Of a stretch of 64,000 bases of DNA, positions 11,208 to 51,399 are shown in pieces. This stretch comes from Rubritalea profundi (GTDB taxonomy: Bacteria > Verrucomicrobiota > Verrucomicrobiia > Verrucomicrobiales > Akkermansiaceae), in NCBI RefSeq assembly GCF_002954445.1, contig NZ_MQWA01000001.1, positions 2,611,666-2,675,665 on the forward strand, given 5' to 3'. The notes under the pieces are model-generated. The model saw only the letters and a list, made by a program, of their open reading frames with translations. It was not told the DNA's origin and ran no database searches. Each line of letters starts with the position of its first letter. Positions within the stretch are counted from its first letter, which is position 1. The position numbers and the translations under genes were made by a program.

Positions 11208-11612
11208 AAATATGTCGAACTGTGCAGATTTTGACACACAATATTTTCACAATGTGACGGTCACTCCACGTAGCGCGACCGTCTCGGGCGCTCAAAATAA
11301 TCCCAACGAAGCTGCTAATACCATCTTCACAGTTACATTGGCGAAATGATCAAATCTTGGGTTTTACTTTGCCAGCAGAGCTGGATTAATGAGCTGGCAC
11401 TGATTCTCTCATATTCTATCAGCGTTACGCGTTTACTGCTCGCCCCGCTCGATTGTCACATAGCTCGCTATGCTCCTTCCTTGTGCCTTGTTGAAATCTA
11501 AAAGCATCAGCGTCATTCCGACAATCTAACAGCTCAAATGGTATAACTCATAGCGCTCAGACCTCACCAGTGAACTTCCGCGCAGCTCATTTAGTCTGTC
11601 TCATAGATAATG
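11208..11612. repeat. Dispersed repeat R2, copy 1 (split by a MITE)
   Basis: First of several copies of a ~170-200 bp dispersed sequence. Shared blocks include CACAATGTGACGGTCACTCC, CTCAAAATAATCCCAACGAA, the AGCGCTCAGACCTCACCAG block and CTCATTTAGTCTGTCTCATA. Copies at 12950 and 14480 carry the same order without interruption between GCTGCT and ACTCA; here a 225-bp element sits at that point. Confidence 0.8.
11319..11543. mobile_element. MITE R1, copy 1, with TAA target duplication
   Basis: A 225-bp non-coding element beginning TACCATCTTCAC and ending CAAATGGTA, bracketed by TAA at 11316-11318 and 11544-11546. The uninterrupted R2 copies at 13105 and 14570 give the empty site, so the boundaries and the 3-bp duplication are directly supported. 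A second, longer copy lies at 51108-51399. No transposase is encoded. Confidence 0.8.
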
Positions 11613-12949: not shown

Positions 12950-13112
12950 GCACAGCTCATTCAGTCTATCTCATAGATCATGCGCACTGAGAAGTATCGA
13001 AGGCCTGAAAGTCGTGCAGGATTAGACACCCAATATTTGTGCAATGTGACCGTCACTCCACGTAGTGCGACCGTCTCGGTCGCTCAAAATAATCCCAGCG
13101 AAGCTGCTAACT
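12950..13112. repeat. Dispersed repeat R2, copy 3
   Basis: Longest uninterrupted R2 copy. It runs from CTCATTCAGTCTATCTCATA through the conserved GATTAGACACCCAATATTTG block to GCTGCTAACTCAC. It contains a perfect hairpin GCGACCGTCTCGGTCGC at 13067-13083 (7-bp stem, 3-nt loop). It lies between the thioredoxin and Fic genes and overlaps no recognisable coding sequence. Confidence 0.8.
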
Positions 13113-13119
13113 CACAATA

Positions 13120-14479: not shown

Positions 14480-14612
14480 ATTTAGACATACAATATTTGT
14501 GCAATGTGACGCTCACTCCACGTAACGCGACCGTCTCGGTCGCTCAAAATAATCCCAGCGAAGCTGCTGACTCACAGCGCTCAGTCCTCACCAGCAAACT
14601 TCCGAACGCCAT
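14480..14612. repeat. Dispersed repeat R2, copy 4
   Basis: Matches R2 from TTTAGACATACAATATTTGTG through the GCGACCGTCTCGGTCGC hairpin and GCTGCTGACTCACAGCGCTCAG to CCTCACCAGCAAACTTCCG. It has no MITE insertion, which provides the empty site for copy 1. The 230 bp between the Fic start and this repeat show nothing recognisable. Confidence 0.8.
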
Positions 14613-32462: not shown

Positions 32463-32664
32463 TACCACTTAGCAAAACCAAAGAGACAAATGTTCTTTTT
32501 GCTGGCTTTAGGAAAATGCGCTACGCGGAAAGCTATGAGAGCTGGGCGCTTTCTTGATAAATCGGCGTTTCTCTCGGTCATGGTGCTCGCACCATTCCCT
32601 CGTCTAGCCTTGATTGATCAAAAAATCACTCCAGTATTAGTCTCTTTTGATTCACTAAGTGGTA
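32463..32664. mobile_element. MITE with TACCACTTAG ends and TTA target duplication
   Basis: A 202-bp element starting TACCACTTAG and ending CTAAGTGGTA. Similarity between the ends extends inward (AAACCAAAGAGAC versus ATCAAAAGAGAC). TTA occurs on both sides (32460-32462 and 32665-32667). It has no gene. It lies 117 bp after the sulfatase stop. Confidence 0.8.
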
Positions 32665-46720: not shown

Positions 46721-47539
46721 TACCACTTAGACTCTTTTCAAACTCTAAGTGGTCATTCACGTCAAAATAGTGAATGGCTGAAGGGAATGGCTTATTTCGC
46801 TATCGGCGAATCTAATACCAGCCTAGGGAAGAAGCGACGCGCATTCCCTAGGTTAAGCGTAAAGAAGCGTATGTTGGCTGAAGGCCAACTTCATCTATCC
46901 ATCAGCTTTGTCTCAGCATGAGTCTGGCCTTCAGCCAGAAAAACATCTCTCTATCCTATCCTAGGGTTACGTTCCTGCGTCACTCACCCTAGCTGGTATG
47001 AAAATGGCCTTCAGCCAATCGTGATCATAACGAGTATTCTGAAAATATTGAGTGTCTACATCAGCACGCTGAATTTCTTATTTTGACGCGAATGTCTAAG
47101 TGGTATCACGCTACACGACAATTTTCAGATCAAGAACCTACCCACCATTGAGGGCGTAGCCACGGTACTTGTCGAGTAGCTAGTAGTGAGTAGTGAGCTA
47201 TACTTCGCGCCATGTTTTGGGATTTCCACTCCAAGGGTGGGCATAATACTTAACACGTAAAACGTAACACCACTAGGCGCTGAAAGGACCCCTCTCAATC
47301 TCAGAGTTCGTTCTCAATTGGACAAATCTTGATGCGCATCAGTATAGCATTTGTGAATCAACACTCAAGGTGGCTATCATTGGATAGCTAATCAGCACCT
47401 TGCTACCTGTCGGACTCTAGTTTTTTTTCATGCTAGCTACTCGCTACTACCTACTGGCTACTACATAGAGACGCCGAAAGCGCTCTTGTACGACAGGCAG
47501 GAGCACAGCTTAAAAATTGTCGTGTAGTGTGAAGTGGTA
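46721..47539. mobile_element. Composite palindromic element flanked by TAA
   Basis: Starts TACCACTTAGAC and ends AAGTGGTA with TAA on both sides (46718-46720, 47540-47542). Two parts are nested. 46721-47105 has perfect 12-bp inverted ends (TACCACTTAGAC/GTCTAAGTGGTA) and holds hairpin-array copy B. 47107-47531 has 19-bp inverted ends (CACGCTACACGACAATTTT, one mismatch) and inner inverted TAGCTACT-rich arms. No ORF of merit. Confidence 0.7.
46754..47018. repeat. Hairpin-array repeat, copy B
   Basis: Inverted near-identical copy of 28202-28471. It has the same serial hairpins: TACCAGCCTAGGG...CCCTAGCTGGTA outer arms, TTGGCTGAAGGCCAA, TCTGGCCTTCAGCCAGA and CTAGGGT...ACCCTAG. Differences between copies fall mostly at the edges and in one linker. 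Confidence 0.85.
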
Positions 47540-51107: not shown

Positions 51108-51399
51108 TACCATCTTCACAGTTACATTGGCGGAATGATCAAATCTTGGGTTTCACTTTGCCAGCAGAGCTGGATTAATGAGGTGGCACTGATTCTTTCA
51201 TATTCTATCAGCGTTACGCGTTTGCTGCTCTCCCCGCTCGCTCCCTGCGGGATTGGCTATCTCGCTCCGCTCGATTGTCTCATAGCTCCCTCCGTTGCTC
51301 TGCGATCTATGGTGGGCAAGCTGCTATGCTCCTTCCTTGTGCCTTGTTGAAATCTAAAATTATCAGCGTCATTCCGACAATCTAACCGCTCAAATGGTA
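51108..51399. mobile_element. MITE R1, copy 2, with TAA target duplication
   Basis: A 292-bp copy of the 11319-11543 element with TACCAT/ATGGTA ends and TAA at 51105-51107 and 51400-51402. It carries about 65 extra internal bases (a CTCGCTCCCTGCGGGATTGG segment) that copy 1 lacks. A 71-codon frame inside is not convincing as a gene. Confidence 0.8.

Follow-up and report, generated by a model that had tools for sequence, protein, structure and literature searches.

The window, the whole stretch of 64,000 nucleotides of Rubritalea profundi DNA analyzed here, carries two copies of a MITE family (MITE-A, family A), one element of its sister family in the same genome (MITE-B, family B), and copies of a host repeat, one of which is interrupted by copy 1 of family A (Table 1). 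An earlier note on this DNA had deduced the ends of copy 1 and a 3-bp TAA duplication from a comparison with empty sites, and our alignments bear out both. The left flank of copy 1, one TAA, and the right flank together gave a gap-free junction over 93 bp with the host repeat copy at 13022, and the joined flanks were also gap-free through the junction over 123 bp with the other uninterrupted copy. One insertion with a 3-bp duplication is therefore proved for copy 1. Copy 2 has TAA on either side, as had been stated. The family B element has the same architecture as family A and was detected, together with both family A copies of the window, by R1, a covariance model of the twenty-copy alignment of family A and its relatives, which had no family B sequence in its training set. 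The interrupted host repeat (window 11230-11324, 13022-13116, and 14482-14604) represents a separate intergenic repeat family of about 120 bp that contains the palindrome GCGACCGTCTCGGTCGC.

Table 1. Repeat features of the window and differently ended repeats of other genomes matched by the models R1 (whole element) and R2 (core); E-values come from a shortened calibration and are rough
Feature	Position	Strand	Description	Basis
MITE family A, copy 1	11319-11543	+ (left end to right end)	225 bp, TACCAT...ATGGTA	R1, E=2e-31
Left target-site duplication of copy 1	11316-11318		TAA	Sequence and empty-site alignment
Right target-site duplication of copy 1	11544-11546		TAA	Sequence and empty-site alignment
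Core rod of copy 1	11433-11498	- (constrained strand)		R2, 24.3 bits, E=7e-4
MITE family A, copy 2	51108-51399	+	292 bp, TAA on both sides	R1, E=2e-32
Uninterrupted host repeat, empty site 1	13022-13116	+		Alignment to joined copy 1 flanks
Uninterrupted host repeat, empty site 2	14482-14604	+		Alignment to joined copy 1 flanks
MITE family B element	32463-32664	+	202 bp, TACCACTT ends, TTA on both sides	R1, E=1e-23
Intact core rod in family B element	32553-32621	- (constrained strand)		R2, 62.2 bits, E=7e-14 (R2 training set included one related family B sequence)
Repeat in G021			Ends ACCGTTTCTC, CTAG or TA flanks	R1
Repeat in G052			Ends GAACCTGTTTGG, TNA flanks	R1
Repeat in G573			Ends GGGTCTGTTCCCG	R1
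Repeat in G506			Ends GGGGCTGTTGC	R1
Repeat in G150			Ends TGTCCCGCGCGG, CTAG flanks	R2
Repeat in G137			Ends TGTAGTCCGCC	R2
Repeat in G534			Ends ACACAGCGGC, close variant in G592	R2
Repeat in G680			Ends AGACTCGGG	R2

Family size, termini, and target site

When copy 1 was compared by BLAST with its own 4.17-Mb genome, 30 matches were obtained at E ≤ 1e-3; it belongs to a real MITE family. The end pattern TWATACCAYYT occurs at 96 sites in this genome, compared with 15 for the reversed control pattern, and from 81 of the 96 a MITE body of family A or B continues. The ends are TACCATTT in family A and TACCACTT in family B, and both families cluster near 200-205 bp. The elements have the features by which MITEs are recognized: they are short and without coding capacity, have 31-bp imperfect terminal inverted repeats and a length of mostly about 205 bp, duplicate their target, have an empty site, and are dispersed in multiple copies. 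A length of exactly 205 bp was found in 28 of 62 paired ends from loci of several genomes, though the copies differ widely; 205 bp is the preferred element length, and we count it in support of the overall explanation given below.

The 62 pairs were scored without requiring any target-site duplication, and the 3-bp flanks are identical in 46 of them, the others showing mostly TAA/TTA mismatches. The duplication had been described as TAA, of the TWA kind. TAA and TTA do dominate, but the real target is TNA, with T in 98% and A in 100% of cases and with A and T predominating at N; TGA and TCA also occur, as duplications in G005 and G043 and as flanks in G098. G005, a congener, has more than 100 ends, and its paired ends are about 200 bp apart. 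In G098, from another family of the order, the assembly is broken at numerous near-identical ends, and a recent burst seems to have taken place there.

In 10 of the 62 insertions (e.g., L101, L108, L113, L123, and L141), whose ends are otherwise intact, a TAA flank is combined with a TTA flank, and in 8 of these 10 it is the left end that has TAA and the right end TTA. We also observed two mobile repeats lying edge to edge and sharing one TNA (TGGTA-TNA-TACCA) at L099 (4138149), L057 (1399875), and L084 (3205426) and at locus L121 of G005. Such a pair is one element inserted at the border of another. The pairs are apparently commoner than random TNA targeting predicts, and existing element ends may be preferred targets.

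Search for a transposase and a parent element

It had been proposed that an IS5/IS1031-type or PIF-like transposase elsewhere in the genome may move the MITE, with a full IS with TACCA termini as the thing to look for; no such IS was found in the genomes examined. A search by paired ends that covered the own genome, 16 relatives, and a further 387 genomes belonging to the order, incomplete draft assemblies among them, gave no TACCA-ended full-length transposon and no end pair enclosing a gene. A single exact-pattern scan across GTDB genomes yielded 8 stretches, 7 of them in Verrucomicrobia MAGs, with no full-length TACCA element among them. The ends at the 30 retrieved DDE_Tnp_1 loci are of other types, without a single case of TACCA. 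The model DDE_Tnp_4 (PIF/IS5-like) gave a single match above the cut-off in nine genomes, a lone, intact IS5-family transposase gene of the own genome (NF033581, E=5e-72; G000:C1:2580295-2580861, locus L152), which the IS5 models fit better than DDE_Tnp_4 does. This gene has no recognizable terminal repeats and no TACCA ends; it might supply the transposase in trans.

The proposal of an IS5/IS1031-type or PIF-like mover is thus compatible with the data as far as the TNA target goes, but no parent IS or DDE_Tnp_4 element to match it was found. The TNA duplication is that of the IS5/IS1031 group, whereas a parent IS joining matching ends with an IS5-family transposase did not appear among the genomes examined, nor did a DDE_Tnp_4 transposase with matching ends, as PIF/Harbinger membership would demand. 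An assignment of the MITE to the IS1031 or PIF class is at most compatible with these results. MITEs derived from the IS5 family and IS1031 are likewise short and non-autonomous, with terminal inverted repeats and a 3-bp TNA duplication; the present elements differ from them in having TACCA ends, no parent found, and an internal core whose conservation runs deeper than that of the ends. The ends of IS1031 are G-rich, and we know of no TACCA ends in IS5/IS1031.

We consider it rather unlikely that the elements are simply MITEs of an IS5/IS1031-type or PIF-like transposase with nothing further of note. Such an explanation agrees with the TNA/TWA target, with the single intact IS5-family transposase gene at L152, and with the repeats of G052, which obey TNA and whose GAACCTGTTTGG ends we take to be IS5-like. 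PIF/Harbinger elements also duplicate TWA (PMC4482050). However, the searches gave no TACCA-ended IS, the lone IS5 gene has no recognizable ends, and the conserved core would be left unexplained.

An 819-bp stretch flanked by TAA (window 46721-47539) was considered as a large element and rejected; it is a mosaic of a B-type terminus and a separate repeat. The latter (window 47105-47532) is about 430 bp long, has TCACACTACACGACAATTTT ends, and lies inserted in a B-like MITE end with AGTGGTA duplicated. Its parents may be two DDE_Tnp_1 insertion sequences of the same genome (L162 and L175), whose ends, ATCACACTACACGAGG, resemble its own.

Structure of the core

The alignment of family A and its relatives, with twenty copies from seven genomes, shows end repeats of 31 bp together with one small hairpin and a long arm in the center. 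Compensatory double changes over the whole element occupied 152 cells, compared with 53 ± 6 in shuffled controls and at most 36 in slid ones. The core is an imperfect hairpin rod of about 70 nt on the strand 5'-CAAGGC...AACGC-3', which is the minus strand in the window, with the layout 5'-(variable stem)-CAAGGC-NNGANGARG-(6-bp hairpin, CGRG loop)-TGACYGANGANNAACGC-(variable stem')-3'. Going inward, the rod consists of a variable outer stem, short Watson-Crick steps split by 2x2 loops, and a 6-bp hairpin closed by CGRG. Two of the 2x2 loops are GA opposite GA. The tandem G-A loops lie at columns 24/53, 25/52, 21/56, 22/55, 29/49, and 30/48, and the isolated pairs between the loops (columns 19/58, 20/57, 23/54, and 26/51) covary. 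The highest conservation belongs to unpaired bases (CAAGGC, GANGA/GANGA, and AACGC). In the core, double changes occupied 132 cells compared with 38 ± 5 after shuffling, and in a set from genomes outside the training set of R2, a 70-nt core model from 18 sequences, 196 compared with 61 ± 6. One of the alignments, A4, was made by the model. Tandem G-A pairs form stably in RNA and in ssDNA alike.

The mismatches within the helices are one-sided. Training cores had 32 GT against 6 AC and 12 GA against 3 CT, and the set from non-training genomes had 64 against 7 and 18 against 4; with one sequence for each of 23 non-training loci, 50 GT and 13 GA were found against 4 AC and 2 CT. GT and GA together exceeded AC and CT in 16 of 18 and 23 of 23 sequences (16:1 and 23:0 per sequence). 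Considering that a constraint on a duplex or cruciform would be symmetric, one folded strand, either RNA or ssDNA, seems to be constrained, although the G-T mismatches alone could be explained by strand-biased deamination.

Occurrence of the core in repeats with other ends

When R1 was run on 240 Verrucomicrobiota genomes, matches were also found in differently ended repeats, and R2 was positive in 32 of 387 Verrucomicrobiota genomes from 19 genera. The repeats that share the core have no fewer than seven unrelated kinds of terminal repeat and two or more types of target site, although few copies were examined for most of these other ends and some end types rest on one or a few. The ends, the types of target-site duplication, and the outer stems differ completely between groups, and the core stays. 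In G052, whose MITE is structurally related to family A, 67 end sites were found, mostly as pairs about 220 bp apart and with no longer element among them; the insertions are real, as 12 of the 16 copies examined have identical TNA flanks. The recurrence of the core across Verrucomicrobiota in differently ended repeats suggests a role as a folded single strand. The specific core queries matched no plasmid or viral contig, an absence that weighs little because the queries are narrow. The cores at L246, L248, L251, and L255 are paired in inverted orientation at a spacing of about 35-40 bp and in this resemble REP doublets.

As an alternative, the elements might be ordinary MITEs with a functionless core and one ancestor whose ends have changed, the palindromes being by-products of template switching or intrastrand quasipalindrome correction. 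Palindromes are common in bacterial MITEs and known to form stem-loops (PMC10969869, PMC2229807), and correction of one arm by the other would yield compensatory changes. However, neither the top conservation of unpaired bases nor the tolerance of mismatches on one strand is explained in this way, and a core that stays where the ends, duplication types, and outer stems differ also makes such an origin improbable.

Comparison with known families and genomic context

It could also be supposed that the core is an ssDNA hairpin for a tyrosine transposase (HUH, RAYT/TIRYT-like) or a related nuclease and aids mobility or copy number. The one-strand constraint on the hairpin, the tandem G-A beside the stem, the compensatory changes, the inverted core pairs, and the intergenic position of the cores, often between convergent genes, would all be in line with this supposition. 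REPIN hairpins show compensatory changes as well (PMC3116915), and GTAG repeats have been found in Verrucomicrobia (PMC3733652). In contrast, the 3-bp TNA duplications and terminal inverted repeats indicate a DDE enzyme, and neither GTAG nor CGTC stands as a tag beside the hairpin in core alignments A2 and A3; on the opposite strand CGTC varies. We therefore regard a hairpin of this kind as distinctly unlikely. REP/REPIN elements with RAYT resemble the core in their compensatory hairpin changes, in that they may act as ssDNA or mRNA, and in forming some inverted doublets; the present rod is larger, has several internal loops, and lies inside elements with terminal inverted repeats and target-site duplications.

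The integron attC site is an imperfect hairpin recognized on one strand and is similar to the core in this respect, but the order of the conserved AAC/GTT boxes here is unfit for attC and the integrase context is absent. The identities of attC, REP, and hammerhead were all rejected for the core on the basis of its order or tags. MITEs of the ERIC, Correia (NEMIS), and RUP type are also 100-200 bp long, often with TA termini, and form a long stem-loop in the transcript (PMC2229807). They differ from the present elements, whose constrained strand is identifiable, whose loops consist of tandem G-A, and in which one core goes with unrelated ends. A search of Rfam gave nothing at the gathering threshold and, at E ≤ 5, only sub-threshold, unrelated matches. 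As far as the literature was searched by sequence words and topic, no description of the element or the core was found, and one structured core common to MITEs with unrelated ends appears to be new.

In the own genome, the orientation of the core relative to co-directional neighbors has no bias (6 versus 5), and inspection by eye showed no obvious promoter; the context therefore does not support an RNA role. The lack of orientation bias also speaks against a core RNA acting on neighboring mRNA. The core might still be the ncRNA, provided in cis by the element, of an RNA-guided or RNA-dependent mobile system with its protein encoded elsewhere, as the structured strand, the conserved non-Watson-Crick loops, and the many copies with no protein-coding parent of matching ends in G000, G005, G098, or G052 would allow. 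However, the terminal repeats vary by group, the 3-bp duplication fits ordinary DDE transposition, and neither a promoter nor an associated gene was found, which makes an ncRNA of this kind highly improbable.

Possible role of the core

Taken as a whole, the data are probably best explained by insertions of non-autonomous, TNA-targeting MITEs that carry, independently of their ends, a core folding as a single strand for a factor acting in trans. The two copies in the window are such inserted transposons of MITE-A, and a DDE transposase that our searches did not recover probably moves the elements in trans. The module inside each element is conserved independently of the terminal repeats, compensatory changes keeping its helices and the conserved tandem G-A mismatches keeping its loops, on one strand only. 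This strand most likely folds as RNA or transiently as ssDNA, and recognition of the folded strand by the trans-acting factor would aid the persistence or movement of the element.

We tentatively suggest, as a possibility that goes further, that the tandem-G-A rod is a portable functional part of MITEs read by a common factor, so that the elements would need a folded strand as well as a transposase. If this is true, non-autonomous elements with seven or more different terminal repeats, and with target rules that differ as well, carry the rod throughout Verrucomicrobiota. MITEs are usually viewed as transposon ends plus filler, whereas in these elements no part is conserved as deeply as the filler, which outlasts the ends. 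Such conservation would point to a structured RNA coded by the element or to an ssDNA fold needed in its life cycle, and the core would offer a direct, testable handle on why some MITEs reach a high copy number with no visible parent transposon.

In the window, the match of the copy 1 core to R2 is weak because an insertion of about 20 bp interrupts it, and the core of copy 2 is enlarged by roughly 90 bp. Both family A cores of the window are thus interrupted, and an intact core is therefore dispensable for the persistence of a copy once inserted. The two core insertions (11433-11452 and about 51224-51330) are related to sequence in L006 and L007, and the core arm of family A seems to expand stepwise.
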